Made by a program: the position numbers and the translations under genes
Assembly (NCBI RefSeq): GCF_014397255.1
Contig: NZ_CP060724.1
Span: 1,240,001 to 1,304,000 of the forward strand
Reading direction: 5' to 3'
Length of the DNA: 64,000 bases
Origin: Weissella diestrammenae
GTDB lineage: Bacteria; Bacillota; Bacilli; Lactobacillales; Lactobacillaceae
In this document: piece by piece, positions 47,529-62,602 of the stretch
How positions within the stretch are numbered: position 1 is the stretch's first letter
Layout of the letters: each line of letters starts with the position of its first letter
Notes under the pieces: model-generated
Database searches by the model: none
What the model was told of the DNA's origin: nothing
Seen by the model: only the letters and a program-made list of their open reading frames with translations

Positions 47529-48383
47529 ATGGCTCAACGAAGAATGATAAGCAAGAAAGTAACTGATACAGATGTTTTTCTAGAAATGCACTTATCCACA
47601 CAGGCCTTATATTTTCACTTGAATATGCATGCTGATGACGATGGATTTGTAAGTAATGTTAATACCATCATGCGGATGATCGGCGCATCTGGTGATGATG
47701 CAAAGATTTTAATTGCTAAACAGTTCTTGATTCCATTTGATGATAGCGGCGTAGTAGTGATTAAAGATTGGCGTATTCATAACTACATTCGTAAGGACCC
47801 ATATAACGAAACGATGTATAAGGAAGAACGCAAAAAACTCAGTGTTGACGCTAATGGTGCATACCAAGTCAACGAACCGTCTACGGAACGTGCACGTGTC
47901 GTCAACGAGACGTCACCACAGGTTAGGTTAGGTAAGGATAGGTTAGGTAAGGATAGTAAAGATATACGAGCACCGAAAATTGAATTTTCGGAAGATTTCG
48001 AAAAACTATGGGAAATGTATCCAAATAAAAAAGGGAAGAATGTTGCTCAGAAAGCATTTAATAAAGCAATTAAAGATGGTGACACTGTTGAACAGATAAG
48101 AGCAGGTATTGAAGCATACAAGGCTTATACCAAAGCAGAAGGTACTCCAGTTATGTATATCAAACATGGTTCTACATTCTTTAATCAGCGAAGTTGGAAC
48201 GATGACTATACAATTCAAGCTAAACCATCACAACGACAAGTGCCAGTTCGTGAGACACAGCCTGATTGGGATAACCAACCAGTTGAAATTGTTTCAGCAG
48301 AGAAACAGTTAGAGCTGGATAAAATGCTTGCACATATGTCTGATAGACGACGTGAGGCGGAGGACAAGCATGGTATTTCGTGA
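47529..48383 (+). CDS. Phage replication initiator (replisome organiser)
   Basis: A 284-aa protein. The N-terminus (RRMISKKVTDTDVFLEMHLSTQALYFHLNMHADDDGFVSNVNTIMRMIGAS...FDDSGVVVIKDWRIHNYIRKDPY) is the winged-helix domain of Firmicutes phage initiators. A linker with two near-repeated LGKD units (about residue 139) follows, and the C-terminal helices (FEKLWEMYPNKKGKNVAQKAFNKAI) resemble the DnaD-type helicase-loader contact region. DNA repeats coding for the linker may be the phage origin. Confidence 0.85.
   Translation: MAQRRMISKKVTDTDVFLEMHLSTQALYFHLNMHADDDGFVSNVNTIMRMIGASGDDAKILIAKQFLIPFDDSGVVVIKDWRIHNYIRKDPYNETMYKEERKKLSVDANGAYQVNEPSTERARVVNETSPQVRLGKDRLGKDSKDIRAPKIEFSEDFEKLWEMYPNKKGKNVAQKAFNKAIKDGDTVEQIRAGIEAYKAYTKAEGTPVMYIKHGSTFFNQRSWNDDYTIQAKPSQRQVPVRETQPDWDNQPVEIVSAEKQLELDKMLAHMSDRRREAEDKHGIS
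47921..47955 (+). repeat. Tandem 15-bp repeats, candidate phage origin
   Basis: GGTTAGGTAAGGATA occurs twice in tandem (47926-47940 and 47941-47955) with a partial GGTTA before. They lie inside the initiator gene, the usual place for origin iterons in lactic phages. Confidence 0.55.
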
Positions 48384-48984
48384 AAAATACGTATTTGATA
48401 TCGAACCTCAGCAGCAGGAGCGTCCTAGGTTTGCGAAGCGTGGAAACTATGTTAAAGTCTATGATCCAATTAGAACCGCAAACTATAAAAAACAATTGAG
48501 AATGATTGGCGAGAATATTGGGAATAATATCTCTAATTTTGACGAGAAGGCACCTATAAGACTTGAAATTACGTTCTATCGGCAAATACCTAAGAACGCA
48601 CCTAAGTGGCAGAAACGATTCGTTAAGACGCATGAATGATTCCCGGTAACTAAGCCTGATTTAGCGAATTATATTAAGGCCTTCGAAGATGGATTGAACG
48701 GGATATTGTGGCATGACGATAACCAGATAGTTGATATCTTAGCTAGAAAAAGATATGGACGTCCAAGGATTGAGCTCGAAATAATTGAGCTTGTTCAAGG
48801 AAATAAAGACAGTAGAACAAGCATCTCTGGCTTATACCCTGAAATTGACGAGTTACAGTTGGAAATTTATGAATTGGATATAAACAAAGACGCACAGAAA
48901 CTAATTGATAAAGCTGAAAATTTAAAACAGGCAGCTGAGAAATATATATACCTTGAAAGTAGTGAGAAAACGAAGGATGAATAG
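48370..48984 (+). pseudogene. rusA: RusA-like Holliday-junction resolvase with in-frame TGA
   Basis: One frame is interrupted by TGA at 48637-48639. The part before (VFREKYVFDIEPQQQERPRFAKRGNYVKVYDP...FDEKAPIRLEITFYRQIP) and after ([40 protein letters not shown]) together form a RusA domain. [17 protein letters not shown] and DDNQIV carry the catalytic Asp residues. TGG to TGA would explain the stop. A C-terminal helical extension to 48984 goes beyond the usual RusA. ATG 48370 has GGAGG upstream. Confidence 0.8.
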
Positions 48985-49132
48985 TACAGATTTTAATACT
49001 CGATTGAGACGAGAAGCAATCGGACATGGATTTAACACTTGGGAGGATTTTGAAATGTCAGAACCAAGAAATGCAGCAAATGCAAAGTTACAGGTCATGC
49101 GAAATGATAAAGAAGTGAGCTTACAGTTTTGA
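48977..49132 (+). CDS. Hypothetical small phage protein (51 aa)
   Basis: Frame [20 protein letters not shown], continuing [21 protein letters not shown] and ending KEVSLQF. It overlaps the rusA stop by 8 bp and has GAAGGATG as a weak SD. No family recognised, coding potential moderate. Confidence 0.45.
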
Positions 49133-49143
49133 AAGGAACGAAT

Positions 49144-49488
49144 ATGGCTGAAGTAAAGAATGTTAGTGTGGAAGTTAAAATGACTGAAGATTATAAACAA
49201 GCTAGAAGAGATTATGATGCTGCGTTAAATCGGCTACAGGAATTGTTGAATGCTGGTAAAGCGTTTGAAGCTGTTGGAATAAGGACTGTTAAATTTATTG
49301 TGCGTTCAATTTATGGAGATGCGCCTGAGGAGCATATGTATCTCAATGTGAGTACGTCTAAATTGGAGCAAGTAGTAACTGCCATCAATTCATCATGGGG
49401 TGAAACCTATGCCACTCGTTTTAATGCTCGTGAAGAAGCAAAGAAATATTGCGTACCCGGATATGAAATAGTAGAGGTAGACGGATGA
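49144..49488 (+). CDS. Hypothetical phage protein
   Basis: A 114-aa protein: KMTEDYKQARRDYDAALNRLQELLNAGKAFEAVGIRTVKFIVRSIYGDAPEEHMYLNV and a C-terminus ending VPGYEIVEVDG. AAAGGAACG lies before ATG 49144. No known motif. The gene overlaps the next by 4 bp (ATGA), so it belongs to the same early operon. Confidence 0.6.
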   Translation: MAEVKNVSVEVKMTEDYKQARRDYDAALNRLQELLNAGKAFEAVGIRTVKFIVRSIYGDAPEEHMYLNVSTSKLEQVVTAINSSWGETYATRFNAREEAKKYCVPGYEIVEVDG

Positions 49489-49703
49489 AATATTTAGCAA
49501 TTAAATTGTTGATTGTTGCTTCATGTTTATTTGTATTGGCAATTTATATGACGTTAGTCTATACGCTGCCAGTGTTTGCAAACTTCTTGATTGGCCTAAG
49601 CATAGCAACTGGTGTAATTGGCACATTTCTGTATTTATTTGAGGCAGTACTGGTACTCATAGGGTTCGCTTTAATTGTTGTCCTGATTGATTGGTGGTGG
49701 TAA
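49485..49703 (+). CDS. Two-helix small membrane protein
   Basis: A 72-aa hydrophobic protein (YLAIKLLIVASCLFVLAIYMTLVY, FLIGLSIATGVIGTFLYLFEAVLVLIGFALIVVLIDWWW) with about three membrane segments and no soluble domain. No family recognised. Part of the prophage early operon. Confidence 0.6.
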   Translation: MKYLAIKLLIVASCLFVLAIYMTLVYTLPVFANFLIGLSIATGVIGTFLYLFEAVLVLIGFALIVVLIDWWW

Positions 49704-49705
49704 CC

Positions 49706-49903
49706 ATGAGAACAGCTGATGAAGAAGAGAAAATCAGGCAATCCCTGGAGGATGTCGAGGCGGCACAATCTGACTTGGTGGGTATTCCAGTTGATGAAGA
49801 CAATCTAGCACGGATTGAATCCGCAAGTGAAGAACTGTCGCGTTCGATTGAAAATGTTCAGAGTTTGATTAGTCATATTGATAATAGGGGGTATTCAGAG
49901 TAG
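49706..49903 (+). CDS. Hypothetical acidic phage protein
   Basis: A 65-aa acidic, probably coiled-coil protein (EEEKIRQSLEDVEAAQSDLVGIP..RIESASEELSRSIENVQSLISHID). ATG 49706 is 2 bp after the previous stop with GGTGG as SD. Stop overlaps the next start. Confidence 0.55.
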   Translation: MRTADEEEKIRQSLEDVEAAQSDLVGIPVDEDNLARIESASEELSRSIENVQSLISHIDNRGYSE

Positions 49904-50025
49904 TGGACAGAGTACCGATTTCATATGGCAAAGATAAACAGATAGAAATTCAATCTAAGGAATTAGTTAGGCTGCGTAATGAAAACAGGCTTTTAAAAGT
50001 TGAAATCAACAGATTGAAGGAGTAA
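49903..50025 (+). CDS. Hypothetical 40-aa coiled-coil peptide
   Basis: Starts at GTG 49903 overlapping the preceding TAG, with AGGGGG upstream. Sequence VPISYGKDKQIEIQSKELVRL followed by a Leu/Asn heptad pattern (RNENRLLKVEINRLKE). Small coiled-coil genes of this type are frequent in phage early operons. Confidence 0.5.
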   Translation: MDRVPISYGKDKQIEIQSKELVRLRNENRLLKVEINRLKE

Positions 50026-50029
50026 CTCA

Positions 50030-50545
50030 ATGGCAATTAGATATAGAAATGTATTAGAACTCTACTTCTCTGGACGGCTTAGCATGTTGATAGCGTTGCG
50101 AGAAGTTGAATTAGGTATCAAGGATAGCGTTGATGAAAATGTTGGCGGCAGTAGAACGCAGTTTAAATATAATAAACCAGCAGAAGATACTATGATTGCG
50201 ATTGATGAAGACAAAGATTTAACTCTGATGAAGCATCAAAAACGAGTGTTAGATTTCGTTGCAAGTAATTGGAGTGATGAAAAAGTATCAGCATTGAGAG
50301 AACACTATGGATTTAGACGTGCTACGTGGACAATGATTGCGATGCAACATTCAATGACTGAGAGTGGTATAAGGTTTTGGCGTGACGGATTTATCAAAGA
50401 GATTGAAGAGTTTAATCTCTTAGGTGAAACGAAATATGAATTAGACAAAAGAAAGACGTTGAATTTTATTGAGCAAATGGCTACGGAAAGCGATTTGCGT
50501 GAAATAAAACGAAAAGTTGAAGAACGAATGAAACTATCAAATTAA
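50030..50545 (+). CDS. DUF722-like phage transcription regulator
   Basis: A 171-aa protein. The N-terminus YRNVLELYFSGRLSMLIALREVELGIKD and the helical remainder (KHQKRVLDFVASNWSDEKVSALREHYGFRRATWTMIAMQHSMTESGIRFWRDGFIKEIEEF) fit DUF722-type proteins that sit at the end of early operons and are thought to act on late transcription. AAGGAG precedes ATG. Family match is from memory. Confidence 0.55.
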   Translation: MAIRYRNVLELYFSGRLSMLIALREVELGIKDSVDENVGGSRTQFKYNKPAEDTMIAIDEDKDLTLMKHQKRVLDFVASNWSDEKVSALREHYGFRRATWTMIAMQHSMTESGIRFWRDGFIKEIEEFNLLGETKYELDKRKTLNFIEQMATESDLREIKRKVEERMKLSN

Positions 50546-50726
50546 TTTTTGACATTTTCACTGCGTTTTGGACTAAAATACGGTGCTAATATTGTATTAT
50601 CGAATAGTTAGTTGATTATCAAAATTAATTCCAGGTCGACAAAAAGCTAGCCGGTTGGCAAAGATAATTTCAAGCTTTCTTTATAATAGGTGAACAGGTA
50701 CTACATTACTGGTCGGGTCCCATTTA
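50546..50726. other. Non-coding region before the accessory island
   Basis: No gene seen. TATTGTATTATCGAATAGTTAG resembles part of the 109-bp header repeat at 56286 and 58928. Probable phage promoter or regulatory region. Confidence 0.45.
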
Positions 50727-50781
50727 AAGCAATGACTTAGGTCGTTGCTTTTTTGCTATAATCTATCTTTGGAGGTAGGTT
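50727..50781 (+). promoter_or_regulatory. Cassette header: hairpin, TATAAT, SD
   Basis: AAGCAATGAC and GTCGTTGCTT pair around TTAG, with T run. TG-C-TATAAT follows at 50757-50762 and GGAGG at 50771. Same layout as headers at 55539 and 59008. Confidence 0.65.
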
Positions 50782-51351
50782 ATGAATTATTTAGAACACA
50801 TACTTGATTTTTTAAAACCCGTGGCAACTCAAATCATATCAAGCTTTGTTGTGATTGGAGTTGCGTATGGTACGTTCAAAATGGGCTTCAAAAAAGATGA
50901 GAACATTGAATATATAAAGAATATCAAAAAGAATTCTATTGAACTAAAAATAATTTTTGCTCAATTAAATACCATACGCTTTGAGGACTCGGAGAAGCAA
51001 AGGAACGGACTGTATGCATTTCTCTTTTATGAAAACAATGGCATTTTTGAAATATATAATTATCAAAACATTCGTAAATCATTTAATGAGATTTATAGAG
51101 ATCTATATGTGATTGATAAATTCGAAAAGGCAGAGGATTCAATAAATGATATTAGTGAACTAATATCGACAATGATGAAACTAAATAGTTCAATAGAGGA
51201 GCGGAAAAGCTTTGGGAGAACAGTTGCTTTAGACATAATGTTAGAAACCGATGGGCTAATGAAAATTGATCAGATTTGTTCTGAGATTATAGCTAAAAAT
51301 AATGACGCGATTTCAGCTGTTGAAAGAATACGGAAAATCAAACTCCGATAA
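50782..51351 (+). CDS. Membrane-anchored helical protein, accessory cassette 1
   Basis: A 189-aa protein. One N-terminal membrane helix (ATQIISSFVVIGVAYGTFKMGF) is followed by about 155 aa of charged helices (EYIKNIKKNSIELKIIFAQLNTIRFEDSEKQRNGLYAFLF, SINDISELISTMMKLNSSIEERKSFG). The topology recurs in the genes at 55589, 56620 and 57495, and it has the same header. No enzyme motif seen. In phages such proteins are often superinfection-exclusion or abortive-infection factors. That is inference. Confidence 0.65.
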   Translation: MNYLEHILDFLKPVATQIISSFVVIGVAYGTFKMGFKKDENIEYIKNIKKNSIELKIIFAQLNTIRFEDSEKQRNGLYAFLFYENNGIFEIYNYQNIRKSFNEIYRDLYVIDKFEKAEDSINDISELISTMMKLNSSIEERKSFGRTVALDIMLETDGLMKIDQICSEIIAKNNDAISAVERIRKIKLR

Positions 51352-51375
51352 AAATTGAATTGAAAGGATTTTAAG

Positions 51376-51567
51376 ATGATAATTGGTCAAAATAAAAAAG
51401 TACAAGTGAGCGATAGTAAACTACATACTAAGATTACAGATACAGAAACAATTATCGACTTCGATCTACGAAAAAACGACAAGAAAATTAAAACAACTAA
51501 GGCCACAGCATCAGTCAAAAATGCTAGTGGCTTTTTGTTTGAGTTTGAAGTGGTAAGCGTAGTTTGA
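51376..51567 (+). CDS. Hypothetical 63-aa protein
   Basis: Sequence MIIGQNKKVQVSDSKLHTKI, continuing to an end rich in Lys and Val (TKATASVKNASGFLFEFEVVSVV), probably a small beta-rich protein. AAAGG lies 7 bp before ATG. Cotranscribed with the preceding gene. No family recognised. Confidence 0.5.
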   Translation: MIIGQNKKVQVSDSKLHTKITDTETIIDFDLRKNDKKIKTTKATASVKNASGFLFEFEVVSVV

Positions 51568-51711
51568 ATCCTTAAATGGGCTATTAGTGCTTATCAGAAT
51601 ATATTTTATATTAAAATGCAACGTAGACGGACGTAGCGAGAACAATTTCTGAAGTTTAGAATTTTAACAAAAAATATTTGCAATTTTATATTAATATTGG
51701 AGGCATAAATT

Positions 51712-52125
51712 TTGGCGTTATTACCAGCAATTAACGAACAAGCAACTGTTAGAAATGTAAGACATTTTTTTGATTATGATTTTCTCAGATTACAACAAAT
51801 GGCACATATCTCTTACGTAAGTATAAAGTCCCCGATTATAACCGGAATGCCCACAGGAGAAACGTTTGGTAATTCTAATGATGAAAAGGTAACGAATTAT
51901 GCGTTTGCGAACAAGACGTTAAACGACGTTTTAGAGTCTTGTAAGAGCATGACGTTTCCGCATCGTGATTTTATGGAGTTAAAATATTTTAAAGGTATGT
52001 CGTGGATCGAAATTCAAGAGCTTAAAGGATACTCTGAGAGTAGGGGTTATCAGATAATCAGAGAAGCGTTCTTGCAGTTTGCTGAAGCATTTGCCGATGT
52101 TGAAGATTTTAGAGTTTTCAAATAA
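51712..52125 (+). CDS. ArpU-family phage transcription regulator
   Basis: A 137-aa protein with a sigma-70 region 4-like helix-turn-helix at the end: LESCKSMTFPHRDFMELKYFKGMSWIEIQELKGYSESRGYQIIREAFLQFAEAF. ArpU-type proteins end the early region of many Gram-positive phages and control late genes (packaging, structure, lysis). TTG 51712 follows TGGAGG by 8 bp. No late module follows here. The retron comes next. Confidence 0.8.
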   Translation: MALLPAINEQATVRNVRHFFDYDFLRLQQMAHISYVSIKSPIITGMPTGETFGNSNDEKVTNYAFANKTLNDVLESCKSMTFPHRDFMELKYFKGMSWIEIQELKGYSESRGYQIIREAFLQFAEAFADVEDFRVFK

Positions 52126-52183
52126 TACGAAATATATATAAATATATATTTGATGCATGTAAAATAAAATGTTACAATTTTTC

Positions 52184-52363
52184 AGTCGGGACTGGATCGT
52201 CGTCCTTTGATTCGAAGGATTTGAAAAAAATGGTAGGCCGAACGTTTTGAAGTAACTGGCTAATAGGTCGCAAGTATGTATTTTCAGAGCTTTTAGGCAG
52301 ATAATCGCTTAATTAGTTAATTTGAATAGCGTAAATTTAGTTTGGTAATGAGCTGTCCCGGCT
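52184..52363 (+). ncRNA. Retron msr/msd RNA candidate
   Basis: AGTCGGGAC (52184-52192) can pair with GTCCCGGCT (52355-52363) with one G-U pair, the a1/a2 ends expected of a retron transcript about 180 nt long. Inside, TCCTT-TGATTCG-AAGGA (52203-52219) is an msr-type hairpin. CCGAAC (52238) may pair with GTTTGG (52340) at the base of the msd stem. The RNA ends 18 bp before the reverse transcriptase start. The branching G and exact DNA ends are not determined. Confidence 0.7.
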
Positions 52364-52381
52364 TTTTTTTTGGAGAAAATT

Positions 52382-54214
52382 ATGAATTTGAATGAAGTGA
52401 ATGATGTCGTCGATTTGGCTCGAGTTTTACATTATCCAAGTCGAAAAATTAAAAAAATATTGTACAGAGATAGGGTGGATAATCAATATTTTGAGTTTAG
52501 TTTGGCGAAGAAAAGCGGTGGCAGTAGATTAATCAACGTCCCAAATGAAGTTTTGGCAGATTTACAAAATTGTATTCTTATAGAATTGAAAAGATATATG
52601 AACAATCATGATATTAAATTTTCTAGGGTTTCACAGGCATATCAAAAAGATCGAGAAAAAGGAATATATAGAAACGCTCGTATCCATCGAGGTAGAAAAT
52701 ATGTTATAAATGTTGATTTAGAAGATTTTTTCCCATCTATTCATTTTGGTAGAGTAGTTGGTTTCTTTGAGAAGAATAACAAGTTTAAGTTCACGCATAG
52801 ATGTGCGATATTGCTAGCACAGCTAGTTTGTTACAAAGGTTATCTACCTCAAGGAGCATCTACGTCGCCGCTTATTTCAAATTTAATTTGTCATACATTG
52901 GATATTCATATTCTTAAAATAGCAAAAAAATATCATTTGCGATATTCAAGATTTGCTGATGATTTAACTTTTTCAACTAATGATGATGAAATCTCAACTG
53001 AAGAGCAAATGCATAATTTTATTAAGGAATTAACACGACAAATTGGAAGAGATGGTTTCAAAGTTAATTGGAAAAAGATGCGTATTGCTGGACCGGACGT
53101 AAGACATACTGTGACCGGTCTGGTGAATAATAAAATAGTAAAAGTAAAAAAAGAATATTATAAAAATACGAGAGCAATGGTGAATCAATTGTTTTATACA
53201 CATAGATTCATAATTGATGGAGTCAAGTATAATATTGAAAATGATGAATCAAAAAAAGGCGGCATCAAAAAACTTGAGGGAAGGCTCGCATTCATAGATG
53301 ATATTAATCGAAGAAATAATATTGAATATTTAGACGATATCACAAAGAAAGCGATGACTCGTGTTCAAAATCCGAAAAGATATGACAAATTTTCTGCATT
53401 TGAAAGAATGTATAGACAGTTTCTATTTTTTAAAAATTTTTGGCAACGAAATACACCTTTAATAGTTACAGAAGGAAAGACAGATGTTCTTCATCTAAAA
53501 GAAGCAATAAAAAATTCTGATATTCTATTGCCAAATATCTCTTTCTTCAAACCATCATCTCGATTTGATTTTTTTCTAGGAATAGGGTTTGATGGTGCAT
53601 CGAAGATGGATAAATTCATTAATCTTTACATTAAAGAAAATAGTTTTGAAAATTTATCAATTAAATTTAGAAAAATTGATGATATAAAAAAAGAAAACGA
53701 TCTGTTTGGATTATCTGGAGAATCAAAACCAGTGATTTTATTATTTGATCATGAATTCGCAGACCTGGAAAGTCCAATAAATATGTTTATCAATAATCTG
53801 TCTAAAGACAGAACTTATAGACATATTGAGTCAAAAAAAATTGAGGAATTGGAAAAATATGAGTCGGAAAAACAAAATTCAAATGCGATTAAAAAGTTTC
53901 TGAAGAAAAAATTGAATGAAAATGGATTTATTCATTTAGTAGATAATTTATATGTTTTAGTTATAAAAAAAGATGTTCCGAGTATAAATGAAAAATATGC
54001 AATAGAAGGATTATATCCAATCGAAGTTGTGAATAATGTTTTTGGATTAGGGGTACTTGAAACGTACGCAGATAATAATTTTGAGAATGTGCTAAGTAAG
54101 AACGATTTTTCAAAAATCATTAGACATAAACCTGCTGAAATTTTTAGAGGTTTTAGGCCTACGTTAAGTTGTATTGAAGAAATACTTAAAGATTCAGAAA
54201 ATCGAAATAATTAA
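52382..54214 (+). CDS. Retron reverse transcriptase fused to a TOPRIM domain
   Basis: A 610-aa protein. Residues 1-330 form a retron-type reverse transcriptase: retron motif NARIH (98-102, NAxxH), motif A VDLEDFFPSI (111-120), LPQGASTSPLISN (155-167), catalytic box FADD (191-194, Tyr replaced by Phe) and the retron VTG motif (244-246). Residues about 355-610 carry a TOPRIM-like domain, VTEGKTD (362-368) and LLFDHEFAD (453-461). The RT-TOPRIM fusion is the layout of retron Ec67 (Eco2), where the TOPRIM nuclease is the toxic effector released on phage attack. ATG 52382 follows TGGAGAAAA. The gene is intact amid decayed phage genes. Confidence 0.92.
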   Translation: MNLNEVNDVVDLARVLHYPSRKIKKILYRDRVDNQYFEFSLAKKSGGSRLINVPNEVLADLQNCILIELKRYMNNHDIKFSRVSQAYQKDREKGIYRNARIHRGRKYVINVDLEDFFPSIHFGRVVGFFEKNNKFKFTHRCAILLAQLVCYKGYLPQGASTSPLISNLICHTLDIHILKIAKKYHLRYSRFADDLTFSTNDDEISTEEQMHNFIKELTRQIGRDGFKVNWKKMRIAGPDVRHTVTGLVNNKIVKVKKEYYKNTRAMVNQLFYTHRFIIDGVKYNIENDESKKGGIKKLEGRLAFIDDINRRNNIEYLDDITKKAMTRVQNPKRYDKFSAFERMYRQFLFFKNFWQRNTPLIVTEGKTDVLHLKEAIKNSDILLPNISFFKPSSRFDFFLGIGFDGASKMDKFINLYIKENSFENLSIKFRKIDDIKKENDLFGLSGESKPVILLFDHEFADLESPINMFINNLSKDRTYRHIESKKIEELEKYESEKQNSNAIKKFLKKKLNENGFIHLVDNLYVLVIKKDVPSINEKYAIEGLYPIEVVNNVFGLGVLETYADNNFENVLSKNDFSKIIRHKPAEIFRGFRPTLSCIEEILKDSENRNN

Positions 54215-54302
54215 ATGTATTGACAAAATACATTACGGGTAGCATAGAATTTTAGCATTGGCAAACTTAAAAGATAAATGGACTGAAATCGAGCAAGGAA
54301 GA

Positions 54303-54437
54303 ATGTTTGATGTTGAATGTTGGATTATTGTCAGATTAATGATTTCATTGGATATATATAAAATAAAAAACAGATATTTGGTAGTAGATATGATTCCACA
54401 GGGTAAAAAACAGAGCAAATTAAAGCACGTAGGCTAA
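54303..54437 (+). CDS. Possible 44-aa ORF or gene remnant after the retron
   Basis: Starts with MFDVECWIIVRLMISLDIYK and ends QGKKQSKLKHVG, with GGAAG as SD. The frame is open further upstream (LANLKDKWTEIEQGR) so it could be the tail of a degraded gene. A TTGACA box at 54220 lies ahead. No family recognised. Confidence 0.35.
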   Translation: MFDVECWIIVRLMISLDIYKIKNRYLVVDMIPQGKKQSKLKHVG

Positions 54438-54458
54438 TTGTGTATTTTAAATTAATAA

Positions 54459-54494
54459 AAAGCGTTAGAGCATAAATACTCTAACGCTTTTTTA
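54459..54494. terminator. Bidirectional terminator between retron and McrB-N gene
   Basis: AAAGCGTTAGAG and CTCTAACGCTTT form a 12-bp stem with T runs on both strands. It also contains the stop of the minus-strand gene. Confidence 0.88.
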
Positions 54495-55131
54495 AACTAA
54501 TCTCGAAATTAATAGGAGTTAAATCGAATTCACTAAGAAGCTCGTTACCTCTAATTTCGAAAAATTCAGCACGCTCATTTAACTTAACAATCCTAGTGAT
54601 CGAATAGCTTTCCTTTTTATACTCGATACTGAATATATTACCTAATTCATATCCTTTAGGTAAACGTGTATTAACTAATTCTTGGTTATTAATTAAACTG
54701 ATTGGATCAGCTGAAATGTTTATGTCTAGCCTTGGAGTTGTCAAATTTTCACGCCAGTAATCGGAAACATTACTAACATTGGCTTCAGGATTATCATTTA
54801 ACTCTATATTTTTTTCATAGTAACTCCATCCCTGATTTAGAGAAAGATACACTCTTTTCATGTCAGAAGAGAATAGGTAGACAATATAGAAGCCGCTCGA
54901 AGCACCCAAAGTAATATCTTTATCAAATATTCCTATCCAAGGTATAGTTGCCCAATTTTTAAATTGTCCAACGGAGCCCTTGATTCGATAATTAGTTGAC
55001 CAGTATTCCGTATTAAATGCATTCTTTAGTGATTTAGATTTAATAGATTGAGGTTGATTTTCCTGAAAAGACAAATTTTTCCATGTAGAATAGTTATTCA
55101 TCACGTCCAATAGTGTTTCTTGTATATTCAT
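54481..55131 (-). CDS. Stand-alone McrB N-terminal (DUF3578-like) domain protein
   Basis: A 216-aa protein. The core FKNWATIPWIGIFDKDITLGASSGFYIVYLFSSDMKRVYLSLNQGWSYYEK matches the MrcB_N/DUF3578 domain found at the N-terminus of McrB-like restriction proteins, where it is thought to recognise modified DNA. The AAA+ GTPase of McrB and any nuclease are absent. It may be a separate targeting subunit, an antirestriction factor, or a leftover. SD AGGGAAAAG precedes ATG. It faces the retron across a shared terminator, so it lies in a defence cluster. Confidence 0.75.
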   Translation of the reverse strand: MNIQETLLDVMNNYSTWKNLSFQENQPQSIKSKSLKNAFNTEYWSTNYRIKGSVGQFKNWATIPWIGIFDKDITLGASSGFYIVYLFSSDMKRVYLSLNQGWSYYEKNIELNDNPEANVSNVSDYWRENLTTPRLDINISADPISLINNQELVNTRLPKGYELGNIFSIEYKKESYSITRIVKLNERAEFFEIRGNELLSEFDLTPINFEISLKKR

Positions 55132-55226
55132 TATGCTTTTCCCTATGTTCTATTATTTAATTATATGTATTTTTTAATTTTTGTTGTGTAGACGTAATTT
55201 TGAAAATTTTGGTAGTAGTGATATAC

Positions 55227-55244
55227 TTTAGGGTATACCCTAAA
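55227..55244. promoter_or_regulatory. Perfect 18-bp palindrome upstream of the McrB-N gene
   Basis: TTTAGGGTATACCCTAAA, 96 bp upstream of the minus-strand start. Probably the operator of a dimeric regulator. The regulator is not evident. Confidence 0.55.
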
Positions 55245-55323
55245 AAGTTGACGATGAAGGCAATACACTGCCTGAATCGCCTAGCGTTCTATCCTATCTG
55301 TTCAATTATGAAATTGAAATAAA

Positions 55324-55416
55324 TTAGTGTTTTATATTCTTATATGCTTTTGATAGGTTCAGTATGAACTCACCAAGTACATTTAGAAATAAAACAATGA
55401 ACATCATTTTATCCAT
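55324..55416 (-). CDS. 30-aa hydrophobic peptide, possible small toxin
   Basis: One hydrophobic helix and a basic tail, starting MDKMMFIVLFLNVLGEFILN and ending SKAYKNIKH. AAAAGGATC is the SD. Size, helix and Lys-rich end are like type I toxins and holin-like peptides, but I do not recognise the family. It overlaps a 13-codon leader ORF with a stronger SD (next entry). Confidence 0.45.
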   Translation of the reverse strand: MDKMMFIVLFLNVLGEFILNLSKAYKNIKH

Positions 55417-55445
55417 GTGTGATCCTTTTTATATATTATTTTCAT
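55404..55445 (-). CDS. 13-aa leader ORF overlapping the hydrophobic peptide gene
   Basis: MKIIYKKDHTWIK, with a near-perfect SD AAGGAGGAG 6 bp before ATG. It ends 12 bp inside the next ORF, so its translation could open or limit the downstream SD. Confidence 0.4.
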   Translation of the reverse strand: MKIIYKKDHTWIK

Positions 55446-55538
55446 ATTTTCTCCTCCTTGTCGGTGGCGCGCTAGAAAACACCTACTTCAATTATGCACA
55501 AATTTGGCTAATATAACAATACATAGTTATTTTAAAAG

Positions 55539-55588
55539 GGATGATTTATGTCATCCTTTTTTGATATAATTTTTTCTTGGGGTAAATT
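55539..55588 (+). promoter_or_regulatory. Cassette header: hairpin, TATAAT, SD
   Basis: GGATGA-TTTATG-TCATCC with T6, then TG-A-TATAAT (55565-55570) and TTGGGG, directly before ATG 55589. Confidence 0.65.
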
Positions 55589-56230
55589 ATGAAAAATAAA
55601 AAAATAATTTTGAACAACATAATTGGTAGCATATCAATGGGTATCATGATAGTGATAGGAGCCATTTTTATACCGGATAGATTTGGAAATCTTGCCGATT
55701 GGCTAAGTGCTATAAGTACTCTGGGTGCTGTATTACTGTCTTTTAACCTCTCTAACAAAGCTAATAGAGAGATAAATAATAGAGATAGAAAAAAAGAAAA
55801 GAGGGATGGTTACTATGTTGTTTTTCACCAAATAAGTAATTTGAAGGAAGATATTAGTTTGCATTCAACTGATTACAAACACTGGAAAATGATTGTTGAC
55901 GCTGATATGACCACGCACTTCAATAAACTAGAAAGAAATGAAAATATAACTAATAGTGAATTAAAAAATACACTTTCAAATTCCAAAAATGTAAATTCTT
56001 TACTATCCAGATGGAAAAATAATTGGCAACTTAGTATTTTAGCTGAAAATATATTAGAAAAAGAATATTTGTCAGAGTATAAACAAAAGTACGAAAAAAT
56101 GATCACTGGATTAGGCGATATTATTAAAAGTGTAGAGGATAATCAATATGATGTTAGCCCAGATAAAATTCAATTGATATCTGATTTAGAAAATCTAGTA
56201 TTAAAATCATACAATGATTTTAATAAATAA
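55589..56230 (+). CDS. Membrane-anchored helical protein, accessory cassette 2
   Basis: A 213-aa protein: two N-terminal membrane helices (IILNNIIGSISMGIMIVIGAIF and WLSAISTLGAVLLSFNLS) then about 150 aa of charged helices (NREINNRDRKKEKRDGYYVVFHQISNLKEDI...). Low GC and Asn/Lys-rich compared with core genes. No enzyme motif. The shared header ties it to the other cassettes. Confidence 0.65.
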   Translation: MKNKKIILNNIIGSISMGIMIVIGAIFIPDRFGNLADWLSAISTLGAVLLSFNLSNKANREINNRDRKKEKRDGYYVVFHQISNLKEDISLHSTDYKHWKMIVDADMTTHFNKLERNENITNSELKNTLSNSKNVNSLLSRWKNNWQLSILAENILEKEYLSEYKQKYEKMITGLGDIIKSVEDNQYDVSPDKIQLISDLENLVLKSYNDFNK

Positions 56231-56285
56231 TAGTACAATAGTGCACTCGACACTTTAAGGGGAATTTCAACAGTGTTCAATTTCG

Positions 56286-56394
56286 ATTACAGTTTAACTG
56301 TAGTTTTATTGCAGACGGGCTGTAGGCATTTCGTATTATTATGTTAGTATCGAATAATTCGTAAAGGGGATGACTTAGGTTGTCGCCTTTTTTT
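56286..56394 (+). repeat. 109-bp header repeat, copy A
   Basis: About 88 percent identical by eye to 58928-59035. It contains the palindrome TACAGTTTAACTGTA, GTTAGTATCGAATAATTC, and a terminator-like GGGGATGACTTAGGTTGTCGCC with T7. Confidence 0.75.
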
Positions 56395-56414
56395 ACAGGA
56401 AAGTTGATAATAGT

Positions 56415-56579
56415 ATGAAGAGCAGAATTCGAATAATTTTATTAATAACACTTACATTCGTGATATCAAAAACCAGTATATTATTTGTAATCCATAGTAG
56501 TAACAATATTTGGATCCATTTGTTGTCTTCTATTTTGATTACACTATCTATCATTTTATTATGGTGGTTACTATATTGA
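56415..56579 (+). CDS. Small two-helix membrane protein (54 aa)
   Basis: Helices IRIILLITLTFVISKTSILFVI and HLLSSILITLSIILLWWLLY. AGGAAAG lies about 12 bp before ATG. It follows header copy A and precedes cassette 3. Unknown, could be holin-like or toxin-like. Confidence 0.5.
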   Translation: MKSRIRIILLITLTFVISKTSILFVIHSSNNIWIHLLSSILITLSIILLWWLLY

Positions 56580-56619
56580 TATAGGTACTTTGCTATAATT
56601 TATTCATAAGGAGTAAATT

Positions 56620-57462
56620 ATGAATAAAAAATTTGGCTTTACAATTATCATTTTTCTTGTACTTTCATATGGAATGTTTATTACTATGGAATTAATTGAT
56701 AATAATATTAATTTGATTTCAAAAACTTCACCAATAGGAGCATTAATATCTGTGGTGATAAGTGTAATATTGACAATGATTGTAAACAAGCAAAATAAGG
56801 AAGATCAAGAGAGAAAAATTCGGGAAGAGGTAGGGCGCGAAACAACAAAATTACGGAATGATTTGTGGATAAATAGGTATCGAGATGAAAGAAAAGTTCT
56901 TAAGAACATGCTCGAAATAATTTCGAACCTCTCATCGACTAGTACTTCCTTAATGTCTTCTTTTGAAAAAAATCAGATGGATGAATGGACTGAGATTGAA
57001 ATGAATTTTGGCTCTCTTTTCAATCAACTGATTAAAGAAGGGGCAGATATGATAACGCCACAAAGGATATTAGGTAGTTCATTGAAGAGATGTCAATCGG
57101 AATTTGAGAAAATTAGATCAAGATATAATCTAGAAAACGACAAAAATCAATATAAATGGTTTGTAACATACTGCAAGAATGAATATTTTTATAATAAAAA
57201 AATAGATGATTTCAATGACGCTGGGCAATTAATACATCTCTTAACTAGAACAATTGTTACTTACGATGAATCTGCGAGAAATATCCAACTTAGACAAGAT
57301 GGTCTTAAATTAGATAGAGCTGGCAAAACAAAACAGCAACAAAATCTAAATCAATATAGAGATGATATATTTGCTATTATTGGTGTGTTATTAATGTTGA
57401 AAGCTGTAGTAACTAGCAGAATATCTAAAATGCGTCAATTAGAGGAATTACGAAGGAATTAA
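56620..57462 (+). CDS. Membrane-anchored helical protein, accessory cassette 3
   Basis: A 280-aa protein with two N-terminal helices (FTIIIFLVLSYGMFITMEL, PIGALISVVISVILTMIVN) and a 215-aa charged, mostly helical domain (DQERKIREEVGRETTKLRNDLWINRYRDERKVLKNMLEII...). TGCTATAAT and AAGGAG stand directly upstream. Similar topology to cassettes 1 and 2 but no obvious sequence identity. No known motif. Confidence 0.65.
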   Translation: MNKKFGFTIIIFLVLSYGMFITMELIDNNINLISKTSPIGALISVVISVILTMIVNKQNKEDQERKIREEVGRETTKLRNDLWINRYRDERKVLKNMLEIISNLSSTSTSLMSSFEKNQMDEWTEIEMNFGSLFNQLIKEGADMITPQRILGSSLKRCQSEFEKIRSRYNLENDKNQYKWFVTYCKNEYFYNKKIDDFNDAGQLIHLLTRTIVTYDESARNIQLRQDGLKLDRAGKTKQQQNLNQYRDDIFAIIGVLLMLKAVVTSRISKMRQLEELRRN

Positions 57463-57494
57463 ATACGTGAATGTAAATAGAGGAAGACAAATAA

Positions 57495-58079
57495 ATGACA
57501 TGGTGTGAATTTTTGTTTCAAACGGGAGATCATCATTTTCAATGGGTCGGTATTTCAGCGTTATTGGCTGGAATAGGGTTAATTTTTAACGCAATATGGA
57601 ATAGGAAAAGTTTTAGAGCCGATCTTATTTCTAAGAATCGTATAGAATGGATGAATACAGCCAGGTCACTTATTTCTGATTTGGGAATATATGCAGAAAG
57701 TGCTATTTCCGCGGGCATAGTAGTAGTGTCTGCAAAGACGGGATTCTATAAAAATGAAAAGTTAAATGATTTGACTCAAAAAGCGAACGACGAATTAAGC
57801 AAGTATACAAAGACAGCATTTAACCTACATCTATACATTTCAACGGCAGATGATAATAAAAAATTAAATGATGCGATTGATGGATTAGAGACGGTTTTCA
57901 GTGATTTGAATGAAGAGATTAATGGCAATGAAATAGACAATCAACTAAAAAATTATGATGATTTCTTAAACTACCATAAAAAATCATCGAATAAAATTTT
58001 TGAAGCACGGAATGAGTTAATGACTGTTGCTCGCACATACTTTAAGAACGAATGGGAACGTGCAAAACGTGGAGAGTAA
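57495..58079 (+). CDS. One-helix protein with RIEWMNTARxLISD motif, accessory cassette 4
   Basis: A 194-aa protein: an N-terminal helix (WVGISALLAGIGLIFNAIWNRKSFRADLISKNRIEWMNTARSLISDL) and a soluble helical domain. The pattern of a membrane helix followed by SRIEWxxxxR is common in phage and plasmid proteins of Firmicutes with no known job. SD GAGGAAG. A terminator follows at 58088. Confidence 0.65.
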   Translation: MTWCEFLFQTGDHHFQWVGISALLAGIGLIFNAIWNRKSFRADLISKNRIEWMNTARSLISDLGIYAESAISAGIVVVSAKTGFYKNEKLNDLTQKANDELSKYTKTAFNLHLYISTADDNKKLNDAIDGLETVFSDLNEEINGNEIDNQLKNYDDFLNYHKKSSNKIFEARNELMTVARTYFKNEWERAKRGE

Positions 58080-58211
58080 TAGGCCGTCTGACAAATGTTG
58101 GGCGTTTTTTGTAGAAGAAGTAATTTGAATGAAATGTAAAACTTCTTTTGATATATCACAGTTACCTTATCTTGTTATAATATATGTATCAAAAATAAAG
58201 CAGGTGATAAT

Positions 58212-58757
58212 GTGGATCCAGAAACGAATAAAATAGTGGCACAATTGGCTGATATTACGATTAGAAATACTGCAACTATCATCCATGATAAAATAACGGC
58301 CTCTAAAGCCAAGAAGAATGATAAAGAGACTATAGCCGAGTTAACGGATATTATTTCTGAATTGTTGAGTGATAAGCAAGAACTGCAAAGAATTTCAGGA
58401 TATTTTGAGAATGAACTTATAGCACAAAAAATTTCTGATGAAGATTTAACGTTTATTGCGGAGACTGTCGTTCCTACTATAGAAAAATTATTAGTAGATA
58501 GTGATGATATGATGGATAACTTAAATAAAATAAAACCTCTACTTTCGCGAAGTACGTTTAATGTTTTGCAGATGATTGGTTTTAACTTTAAAAAGGGTAT
58601 AGGAGAACCACTTACAAATTTGTTAAGCGATGCAATTAGTGGAATTAAAGAAAAGCAAAATGATGAGCTTTCTACTGTCATAGCAAATAGAGATATTGAG
58701 TATTTTAAACTATTACAAGATAAAGACGCCTTTGACAGGTGGCGAAGTATTCAATAA
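58212..58757 (+). CDS. Soluble helical protein, accessory cassette 5
   Basis: A 181-aa acidic helical protein without membrane segment (MDPETNKIVAQLADITIRNTATIIHDKI..KISDEDLTFIAETVVPTIEKLLVDSDDMMDNLNKIKPLLSRSTFNVLQMIGFNFKKGIGEPLTNLLSDAI). GTG start with AGGTGAT. The IKPLLSxxTFxxLQxIGFNFKKGIGEPLT block looks like a defined domain that I cannot name. Its own TATAAT lies at about 58174. Confidence 0.6.
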   Translation: MDPETNKIVAQLADITIRNTATIIHDKITASKAKKNDKETIAELTDIISELLSDKQELQRISGYFENELIAQKISDEDLTFIAETVVPTIEKLLVDSDDMMDNLNKIKPLLSRSTFNVLQMIGFNFKKGIGEPLTNLLSDAISGIKEKQNDELSTVIANRDIEYFKLLQDKDAFDRWRSIQ

Positions 58758-58779
58758 TCATTTATTTGTATATAACAGT

Positions 58780-58816
58780 AACGTCTGATAAATCTCAGGC
58801 GTTTTTTATTTCGTGG
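58780..58816 (+). terminator. Cassette tail terminator, copy 1
   Basis: AACGTCTGA..TCAGGCGTT stem with T6, followed by ATTTCGTGG. Nearly identical to 59611-59646. Confidence 0.85.
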
Positions 58817-58927
58817 TGTGAAGAAGCAAAGATGAAATAATCTACTGTAGGCATGACCATACTACGATTACAGATTTAGAAACAATTTGTTTGTGAACAA
58901 CACTTGAGCCAAATAAAATATTTGTGA

Positions 58928-59035
58928 ATTACAGTCTGACTGTAGTTTTATTGTAGGCGGATTGTAGACGTTCTGTATTATCATGTTAGTATCGAATAAT
59001 TCATAAAGGGGATGGCTTAGGTTGTCGCCTTTTTT
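58928..59035 (+). repeat. 109-bp header repeat, copy B
   Basis: Counterpart of 56286-56394, with TACAGTCTGACTGTA as palindrome. It runs directly into TATAAT (59038-59043) and GAGG before cassette 6. Confidence 0.75.
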
Positions 59036-59066
59036 GATATAATCTATCTTTAGAGGTGGATGTACA

Positions 59067-59600
59067 ATGTTGTATTCGAATCTTATTGGAATGAGCGTAT
59101 TTTTATTAATTGTTTTACTAGTAGTATCGATTTATAGAATTAAGGATATTTGGAAAGCAAAGTTAATTAAACCAATCTATGATGTGAATTATTACCGTGA
59201 AATGTTCATGGATTTTAAAGACGGAATTTCAAAAAATGATATTAGCAAAACTAAGCAAACCATGTTAAAAAAGATGTTTGCAAAAGAAAATAAAAAAATA
59301 CAAAAGAATAAAGTCAATAAAGTTAAAAATATTGTCACTGATATCAAAATTACTAGTATAGAAATAGATGATGATTTATATACTGACATGGTGTGTGTAG
59401 TCTACCACGGAAGCTATAGAAATTATTTTGTGTCAGATGTCACAGGCCAGATTGTGGATTCTAAAGGCCATGCACTAAAAAATAAGCGGACACGAATAGA
59501 ACGGTTTTATGAAAAATGGTTTTTAAGAGTAGATGGTGATCAATTGATTTTGAAAAAGATTGATTATGAAGACACATATTACAACGGTTATTATGATTGA
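59067..59600 (+). CDS. Tim44-like domain membrane protein, accessory cassette 6
   Basis: A 177-aa protein: one N-terminal helix (LIGMSVFLLIVLLVVSIYRI) and a domain with KMFAKENKKIQKNKVNKVKNIVTDIKITSIEIDDDLYTDMVCVVYHGSYRNYFVSD...RIERFYEKWFLRVDGDQLILKKID. The layout (helices, beta sheet, FxExWxxxRxG.W-like line near the end) resembles the Tim44-like domain of small bacterial membrane proteins. Function unknown. GAGGTGG before ATG. Confidence 0.6.
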   Translation: MLYSNLIGMSVFLLIVLLVVSIYRIKDIWKAKLIKPIYDVNYYREMFMDFKDGISKNDISKTKQTMLKKMFAKENKKIQKNKVNKVKNIVTDIKITSIEIDDDLYTDMVCVVYHGSYRNYFVSDVTGQIVDSKGHALKNKRTRIERFYEKWFLRVDGDQLILKKIDYEDTYYNGYYD

Positions 59601-59610
59601 ATTTTTTGAA

Positions 59611-59646
59611 AACGTCTGATAAATATCAGGCGTTTTTTATTCGTGG
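59611..59646 (+). terminator. Cassette tail terminator, copy 2, joined to lysin fragment
   Basis: AACGTCTGA..TCAGGCGTT stem with T6 and ATTCGTGG. The lysin remnant begins right after it. Confidence 0.85.
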
Positions 59647-59648
59647 TC

Positions 59649-60441
59649 TACGACAGTAGTTGGTGCGATCGCTGAAGCAGATTATGCAGTTGCAGCTGCA
59701 CAGCAGGCTGGGTTACCTGTTGGTGCCGTATTAGTTGCTGACGTTGAGAATGCCAACCAAATGGCAATGGGTAGCGCCATGCAACCTGTTGTTCAGGCGT
59801 TCAAAGATGAAGTGATGCGCGTCGGTGGGTACCGTTCAACCGGTTATTCTATGGCTTCGCACATCAATGTCACACCAGATGGTGATAAAGCTTGGGTAGC
59901 TTCATATCCATATGAACCAGTAGCAAGTCAAAACTGGTTTAACACCGAGCATGGTTGGCAATGGACATCTAAGGCTGCATTTGCCAGCTCATTAGGTGTG
60001 TTCGACGTCTCACAACTGTATGATGATTTCTTCACTTCTGGTCAAGATGTTAGTGATAAACCTGCGCCATCCGTTCCAAATGATTCAGCAATTCAACAAT
60101 TTAAGAATGTCGGCAATAAGTTTACAACTAACGCCAATATTCGAGTTGACGCTGTGAAATTTGTGAAAGGTATCTGGCAGATGGTTAACTACTCATTAGC
60201 TGGTGCAAAGTCAGACGGTTCTGATTTTGACTGGACTAAGAATGGTATTCCTATGTCATTAGTTACACGTGTAGACGGTGGTGACAATTGGCACACGAAT
60301 GCTGGGGCAGTTGTACGTTTCAACCAACCTATGAACGCTGGAACGATTGATAATTATGATTATGAATCTAATGGCACAGGTATTGGTTATGGAGGGTTTG
60401 GTATGGTTTGGTACGACGCAAATTGTTTATTAGCAGCATAA
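59649..60441 (+). pseudogene. 5'-truncated GH25 phage lysin
   Basis: GH25 lysozymes cut the glycan of peptidoglycan. The open frame starts without a start codon and reads VVGAIAEADYAVAAAQQAGLPVGAVLVADVENANQMAMG, the second half of the GH25 barrel including the catalytic DVE. ASHINVTPDGDKAWVASYPYEP follows, then a C-terminal wall-binding SH3-like region (TNANIRVDAVKFVKGIWQMVNYSLAG...). The first strands with the other conserved Asp are gone. It is the last phage gene and adjoins a cassette tail, so a deletion removed the late module and the lysin start. Confidence 0.85.
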
Positions 60442-60910
60442 AAAAATAAGGCCCAAGAATTGAGTTCTAAAGGGCCATTATACATAAGTACGTTTTTTAA
60501 AACGGAAATTAAATGGCATTTTTTCTATAGATAAAAATTAGGCCGGTGGAGAATTATTAGAACAAAAATTAAAAAAAGCCAAATTTCTTAAGTTTTATAC
60601 TTCATGTTGTTCTTTCAATATATTTTTTTAGATTCCGTAGTATATAATTTAAAGAAGTGAATAAATTTAAGCTAGATTTCTCACGTTTATCTTTCATAAA
60701 TCATCATGTAATCATGGATAAACGGATTGTTATTCGTACAATAGTTCGTGTTTTTTAAAGAAAAAAATATAACGAAAAATTGCCAATTTATAACTGCGTT
60801 AGGTCTCGCTGTTATCATTAAGAATGAAAAATAAGTGGCGAATTAGCAAAAAATTTTAGATGAGTTTGAAGAAATTAAACAAATATTATCTAGCAAACGA
60901 GGATAAAAAA
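60442..60910. other. Non-coding region at the right prophage edge
   Basis: AT-rich, no gene recognised. GGCCC..GGGCC (about 60451-60477) may be the lysin terminator. The right attachment site should be here or beyond, but I found no clear match to the sequence after rpmE2. A second start for mod (ATG 60860) lies at its end. Confidence 0.45.
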
Positions 60911-62602
60911 ATGATTGATTCAAAAATTATGGAGATAACAAAATCTATTTTAAAAGATTTTGGGAATACTTATTTTTCAGAAAAAGGTGCTTTGAGGCGT
61001 AATAAAGTGATAGAAGACCTTGATGCATATACACCAATGTTGATGAAAGTATTATTAGCAGATGAACTAATTCATAGCACATATACAGAAAAACTTACAA
61101 TAAATGGTGAAAGTATAGAAATTTTTAAGCTCAACCAGTTTATTGAAATGTTTACCTATAAAGAGTATTGGCAAGATAGCTACACGAAATTCGAAAACAA
61201 AATTGGACTTACTGCGGGTGGTAAGTTTATTGATGAGACTGCTGATGTTGTGTTAGATTTTCCCTTCAAAGATACCGTTTTAAAAGCTGGTATGACGAAA
61301 GAAGATCAAAAAGATACTGATGAACCTTTTTTGCATGAAACGATCGCTAAAGCTGAAATTGACCAATTATTGGAACCCAAAGTATTTGTTAATGCTACTA
61401 AGTATGACGAAGAACATTTAGATGGTGAAGCTATCAGTGACTTTGATGATGATAATTTAATTATCAAAGGAAATAACTTGATCACTCTTCATAGTTTGAA
61501 CGCGATTTATGCGGGTAAAGTCCAATTAATATATTTGGACCCACCCTATAACACAGGTCAAGATGGCTTTGCATATAATGATAAATATAATCGCTCAAGC
61601 TGGTTAACTTTTATGTTTAATCGTCTACAAATTGCAAAAAAGCTACTTTCTGATGACGGAAGTATATTTATTAACATTGACTATCACGAAGTTCATTATT
61701 TAAAAGTATTAATGGACAACATTTTCGGAGAACAGTATTTTAAGAATAATATTGTTTGGAATTATACAGGACCATCTGGTTCCAATAAATTTCTTCCACG
61801 TAAACATGATGATATTTTGTATTATGGCAAAGGTTATAATACTAAATATCATATTCAATTTATCAAACATAAAAGTGGAATTCATAATTCTGGGCAAGTT
61901 TTTGGGAATAAGGACAGTTCTGAAAGTTACAAATCAGAAACTGAGGCTAAAGGCAAGAAATTAGAAGATTGGTGGGATGATATATACTCCACTGACCGTT
62001 ATAGAAAAGAATTATTAAATTTTTCTGGACAAAAACCAGAAAAATTAATTCAAAGAATTATAAATATTGCCACTGATGAGAATGATATAGTGTTAGATTT
62101 TTTTATGGGTACTGCAACAACACAGGCAGTCGCCATGAAGATGAACCGTCGCTTTATCGGGATTGAACAGATGGATTACATTAAGACTGTTTCTGTGGAG
62201 CGCCTCAAAAAGGTGATTGCTGGAGAACAAGGTGGGATCTCTAAAGATGTTAATTGGCAAGGTGGTGGCGCATTTATCTATGCTGAATTGATGGAAAAGA
62301 ATCAAGGATATCTCAAAGATGTCCAACATACAGAAACGGCTAAACAATTAGATGCAGTCATTAATCGCATGATTGCTGGTAGTGCTGACTTTGACTTCCG
62401 AGTTGATGTTGAAAAGATGATGCAAGATCCTGAATTCCAAGTGATGACATTAGTCGAAAAAAAGCAGCTGATGATCAAAGTCATTGATAAGAATCAGTTG
62501 TATTACGCTTATAGTGATATGGAAGACCGTGACGTACAAGATTTGATGTCTAAGAGTGACATTTCTTTCAACAAGAGTTTCTATAAGGAGCGTGATCTGT
62601 AA
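60911..62602 (+). CDS. mod: Type III restriction-modification methyltransferase (Mod)
   Basis: A 563-aa beta-class N6-adenine-type methyltransferase that also supplies target recognition. LIYLDPPYNTGQDGFAYND carries the DPPY catalytic motif, and motif I (AdoMet binding) DIVLDFFMGTATTQAVAMKMNRRFIGIEQ follows later, the order expected for type III Mod. The middle variable region is the target-recognition part. The end with GGGAFIYAEL is a Mod hallmark. ATG 60911 has GAGG 8 bp ahead. ATG 60860 lacks an SD. It overlaps res. Confidence 0.93.
   Translation: MIDSKIMEITKSILKDFGNTYFSEKGALRRNKVIEDLDAYTPMLMKVLLADELIHSTYTEKLTINGESIEIFKLNQFIEMFTYKEYWQDSYTKFENKIGLTAGGKFIDETADVVLDFPFKDTVLKAGMTKEDQKDTDEPFLHETIAKAEIDQLLEPKVFVNATKYDEEHLDGEAISDFDDDNLIIKGNNLITLHSLNAIYAGKVQLIYLDPPYNTGQDGFAYNDKYNRSSWLTFMFNRLQIAKKLLSDDGSIFINIDYHEVHYLKVLMDNIFGEQYFKNNIVWNYTGPSGSNKFLPRKHDDILYYGKGYNTKYHIQFIKHKSGIHNSGQVFGNKDSSESYKSETEAKGKKLEDWWDDIYSTDRYRKELLNFSGQKPEKLIQRIINIATDENDIVLDFFMGTATTQAVAMKMNRRFIGIEQMDYIKTVSVERLKKVIAGEQGGISKDVNWQGGGAFIYAELMEKNQGYLKDVQHTETAKQLDAVINRMIAGSADFDFRVDVEKMMQDPEFQVMTLVEKKQLMIKVIDKNQLYYAYSDMEDRDVQDLMSKSDISFNKSFYKERDL

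Follow-up and report, generated by a model that had tools for sequence, protein, structure and literature searches.

The retron locus

The locus described here raises the question of whether the a1/a2 pairing at the ends of a retron non-coding RNA (ncRNA) could serve both reverse transcription and the termination of transcription in front of the reverse transcriptase (RT) gene. The host genome, of 1.66 Mb, is from the Lactobacillaceae, and the retron is situated in a prophage region, with an ArpU-family regulator encoded directly upstream. The window referred to below is the whole stretch of 64,000 nucleotides that was analysed. The following features were assigned (window coordinates, strand).

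52150..52178, plus: predicted sigma-70-type promoter TTGATG-17-TACAAT with extended TG; 9/12 consensus matches; start expected at about 52184-52186
52184..52192, plus: a1 arm AGTCGGGAC; 5' end of the ncRNA and 5' half of the proposed terminator stem; 9/9 pairs covary; the covariance-model match begins here
52195..52195, plus: predicted branching (priming) guanosine, equivalent to Eco2 rG15; invariant column in alignment A2
52203..52219, plus: msr stem-loop TCCTTTGATTCGAAGGA; 5/5 tested pairs covary
52232..52351, plus: predicted msd template of 120 nt, placed by alignment in register with Eco2 G52 and A118
52350..52364, plus: weak local hairpin GAGCTG-TCC-CGGCTT, -4.4 kcal/mol, competing with a1/a2
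52355..52363, plus: a2 arm GTCCCGGCT; 3' end of the ncRNA and 3' half of the proposed terminator stem; pairs covary
52363..52371, plus: T-tract of nine T, the first shared with a2; read from the sequence
52372..52378, plus: Shine-Dalgarno sequence GGAGAAA of the RT gene; read from the sequence
52382..54214, plus: RT-Toprim fusion, 610 aa, retron type I-C / Ec67 family; PADLOC, NCBIfam and alignments

The two arms form nine pairs, one of them G-U, and are separated by 162 nt. Eight T follow a2 directly at 52364-52371 (nine with the last base of a2), and both the GGAG at 52372 and the ATG at 52382 lie 3' of this run. The sequence-only reading of this DNA had described 9-bp arms with one G-U, then eight T, then the Shine-Dalgarno sequence of the RT gene, and all of these were found where it had placed them.

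RT-Toprim gene and register with Retron-Eco2

The RT gene product matches the PADLOC model RT-Toprim_I-C over residues 1-606 (E 7e-153) and the NCBIfam family NF038237 (retron Ec67 family) with 455 bits at a cut-off of 450. RT motifs NAxxH (as NARIH), FADD (Y to F) and VTG are present, FADD (window 52952-52963) replacing the YADD that Eco2 has in the RT active site. The Toprim motifs EGKTD and DxE are present as well, the latter being DxD in Eco2. By alignment, the Toprim metal-binding residues are E364, D368, D456, E458 and E542, with E374, D378, D460, D462 and E515 as the Eco2 counterparts, E458 replacing D462; the position of the Toprim catalytic lysine was not confirmed in the alignment with the Eco2-like homologue L118. 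A C-terminal Toprim domain, RT motifs, an upstream ncRNA with a1/a2 and an msr stem-loop, and the conserved G were all found, and these tested features place the retron in type I-C as a new member that deviates slightly, in FADD and DxE. In a Bacillus type I-C retron (L020/L056) the ncRNA looks intact and the RT frame contains stop codons, the mark of a decayed RT.

Shared with Retron-Eco2 (Ec67) are the RT-Toprim fusion, the a1/a2 arms, an AGAT/GGAT priming motif, a single msr stem-loop and an AATGG stop region. L118 fits the published Eco2 numbering both of the RNA (rG15, rU51 and a 67-nt msd starting opposite A118) and of the protein (F46, Y199, D201/D202, E374, D378, D460, D462, S513 and E515) (PMC12405507). 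In the alignment the conserved G next to a1 is present at 52195 and is predicted to be the priming G, and a 120-nt msDNA is predicted for the window retron from the Eco2 register, compared to the 67-nt msd of Eco2 itself. A further difference lies at the 3' end, where a T-tract adjoins a2 in the window retron but not in L118 (TTTCTCCTT).

Comparative evidence for the RNA

RNA folding, a check suggested along with the sequence-only reading, was not significant when run on the single sequence of the element (z -0.6 to -1.0) and was not used as evidence; comparative evidence was therefore needed. In a search of 48000-60000 no Rfam retron family was matched, even at E up to 1. Loci of RT-Toprim homologues were gathered from whole genomes, plasmids, phages, genome contigs and viral contigs; in the genome contigs and viral contigs, single-sequence protein scans yielded no homologues, while alignment-based scans found them. 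The window-derived locus (L001) was counted among Lactobacillales, the arms of L006 were assigned by hand, and the near-duplicate L031 was left out of the tests.

Most homologues have the same order of elements upstream of the RT gene: a1, [A/G]GAT, a stem-loop, AATGG, a variable msd, TAATGAG or TAAGAG, a2 and RT. Among 49 aligned homologues, double-sided compensatory changes occur in 9/9 a1/a2 pairs, with 98.6% of cells paired, and all five tested pairs of the msr stem have changed on both sides (49 sequences). For the whole structure, 14/14 tested pairs covary, and 97.9% of cells are paired, compared to 79.4% in shuffled and 22-54% in slid controls. A covariance model (R1) trained on 35 homologues, a set that excluded the window locus, its two Leuconostoc relatives and L006, gave a single match in the 64-kb window, at 52184-52373 (44.6 bits, E 7.7e-10); R1 also recovers Ec67-type loci. 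Given this match and the covariation, the element is not due to chance. On this evidence, the msr-msd RNA occupies 52184-52371 and belongs to a retron of type I-C (Ec67/Eco2); the locus is the RNA part of a putative anti-phage retron of that kind, carried by a prophage in a Lactobacillaceae genome. The earlier proposal of an Ec67-type retron RNA with these arms as a1 and a2 thus gains support from a model blind to the locus and from pairing that is conserved in the homologous loci.

Predicted promoter and transcript start

The predicted -10 element ends 5 nt upstream of a1. Taken singly, the promoter match at the locus is within chance for the region. In 18/22 Lactobacillales, 14/14 Bacillales and 15/17 Clostridia/Negativicutes homologues, the stem's outermost G-C pair follows the best promoter-like site at a distance of 2-12 nt. 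Because this spacing recurs, a start at a1 is the most likely one, and the ncRNA transcript probably begins there. The sequence-only reading had named a start inside the region as an outcome that would count against it; such a start was rejected, the sigma-70-type -10 predicting one at a1 instead. A separate RT promoter 3' of a2 was also rejected, as only 18 nt lie between a2 and the ATG.

T-tract after a2

In Lactobacillales, T has a frequency of 0.68-0.95 over the nine positions that follow the stem's outermost G-C pair, and then falls to background; the excess of T is accompanied by almost no A. At the same nine positions T reaches 0.45-0.71 in other Firmicutes and 0.35-0.55 in the remaining loci. 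A run of at least five T within 16 nt of a2 was found in 21/22 type I-C retrons of Lactobacillales versus 8/31 of other Firmicutes (Bacillales together with Clostridia/Negativicutes; Fisher p 2e-7, relatedness being ignored), and in 10 of the 64 non-Firmicutes and viral-contig loci. The terminator-like arrangement of stem and T that had been noticed at one locus is thus recurrent. In 17 of these 21 Lactobacillales the run begins exactly where the stem ends, and its distance to the ATG varies from 18 to 38 nt; the T-tract is anchored to the stem end and not to the start codon.

Of 272 genes, sampled across 400 kb of host sequence, none has at least seven T at positions -45 to -10 of the start codon, and such a run occurs within 80 nt downstream of the stop codon in 31. 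The T-tract trait requires at least 20 changes on the RT tree, compared to a shuffled mean of 29, and is therefore clustered yet not restricted to one clade. Most type I-C retrons outside Lactobacillales have no T-tract, so it is not required for retron function. Three Lactobacillales retrons of other types (L211, L219 and L220) also have, in a putative ncRNA, long end-pairing arms with an adjoining T-tract before the RT gene.

The a1/a2 stem as a candidate terminator

In our view the a1/a2 stem probably serves as an intrinsic terminator too, so that ncRNA would be abundant and RT-Toprim would be made by read-through. Transcription would start at the predicted a1 start; once a2 is synthesized, a1/a2 would close the RNA and present the priming G for reverse transcription, and the closed stem, abutting the U-tract, would act as the terminator. 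Most transcripts would then stop within the U-tract and be released as free ncRNA, and a minority of read-through transcripts would carry the RT-Toprim reading frame, for which no promoter of its own fits into the 18 nt between a2 and the ATG. If the stem terminates most transcripts in this way, the template RNA would be kept in fixed excess over the potentially toxic RT-Toprim.

Across homologues the a1/a2 duplex has a predicted stability of -10 to -17 kcal/mol and a predicted pairing probability of 0.95-1.0 in the whole RNA. In the window, nine base pairs (about -13.5 kcal/mol) followed by eight T correspond to the GC-containing stem and U-tract of an intrinsic terminator. The short-loop hairpin of such a terminator is absent, the arms being 162 nt apart and the local hairpin weak. 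Long-range pairing during an RNA polymerase pause would consequently be needed, and a1 must stay free through 162 nt of transcription, a kinetic hurdle for termination by a1/a2 according to the folding predictions, in which about 37% of a1 is unpaired in the nascent RNA at the window locus.

This hurdle is the core of the view that ncRNA and RT form one polycistronic transcript, the stem with its 162-nt loop being too slow and the T-tract terminating little. Reviews do model a single msr-msd-RT transcript (PMC6868368, PMC8867640), a1 is predicted to pair in part with other segments of the nascent RNA, and most homologues outside Lactobacillales have no T-tract. We nevertheless regard this view as unlikely, since a T-tract located exactly at the a2 end in 17/21 Lactobacillales is hard to explain without termination, and the leaders of the 272 sampled host genes have nothing like it.

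Termination at a1/a2 could also be regulated, in a self-sensing attenuator in which closure of a1/a2 is shifted either by RT-Toprim bound to the msr during its synthesis or by an RNA polymerase that a phage has altered. RNA folding would then feed back on RT-Toprim synthesis, and retron assembly or phage infection would be coupled to the dose of the effector. We hold such regulation to be improbable as a hypothesis; a fixed partial terminator setting the RNA-to-protein ratio accounts for the observations on fewer assumptions.

The local hairpin GAGCTG-TCC-CGGCTT (52350-52364), sitting on the T-tract, is one of four terminator-like sites found in a scan of 51600-54600 and might be the terminator at the window locus in place of a1/a2. 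Yet at -4.4 kcal/mol it is weak and contains two G-U pairs, and apart from the window locus a similar hairpin is present only in L003/L031, local hairpins being absent or at most -3.1 kcal/mol in other Lactobacillales homologues. Other homologues with a long T-tract likewise have no or weak local hairpins while all of them have a1/a2, which is therefore the only stem common to all. The local hairpin is thus a very doubtful terminator in its own right, and may help termination at the window locus. That the T-tract is merely a U-rich unstructured translation leader or an AT-rich spacer is hardly credible: the region is AT-rich and a mild T bias after a2 occurs in other Firmicutes too, but the T excess with almost no A is tied to a2 rather than to the ATG, and no sampled host gene has such a run before its start codon.

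Relation to known systems

Within the known type I-C, the variant part, as we infer it, would be the use of a1/a2 as a terminator; no description of such use was found in the open-access literature searched, and the reviews among these papers do not address the balance of RNA and RT dose. Comparable gene arrangements, in which a terminator likewise keeps the RNA in excess over the effector, are known elsewhere. In type III toxin-antitoxin loci (ToxIN, AbiQ) an RNA element, a terminator and an effector gene are read from one promoter (PMC5086642). The RNA of these loci is a repeat array and the terminator a separate palindrome, whereas in the window the end-closing stem of the ncRNA would itself terminate. 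In Clostridioides difficile, the prophage-borne defence gene abiF is located behind the ncRNA RCd22, which ends in a terminator; the short RNA is dominant, and a read-through mRNA has been mapped (PMC12373285). Unlike the window retron, AbiF/RCd22 has a separate hairpin terminator and no reverse transcriptase. The retrons L211, L219 and L220 differ from type I-C in being of other, unassigned types.

If the stem for reverse transcription is also the terminator, the balance of RNA and RT dose would be explained for lactic acid bacteria, two functions would be tied to the same nine base pairs, and retrons would be regulatory analogues of type III toxin-antitoxin systems. Lengthening of a1/a2 is a common step in retron engineering (PMC12262390), and in constructs that keep such native leaders it could alter expression of the RT.

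Genomic surroundings

The prophage region (35542-60441) encodes an integrase (35542, minus strand), an anti-repressor, an Erf-like annealing protein, a DnaD-like loader, two ArpU/Alt-like regulators and an endolysin-like fragment at 59761. The proteins scanned gave no match to a capsid, terminase or tail family, and the region may therefore be a remnant or a satellite. Behind the retron, at 54481-58757, are a stand-alone MrcB_N-domain protein (54481-55131, minus strand) and several proteins of unknown family that have membrane-like stretches (55589, 56620, 57495 and 58212), all of which are possible cargo. Just past the prophage region, a 580-aa DNA methyltransferase-like protein (phrog_67) is encoded at 60860-62602.
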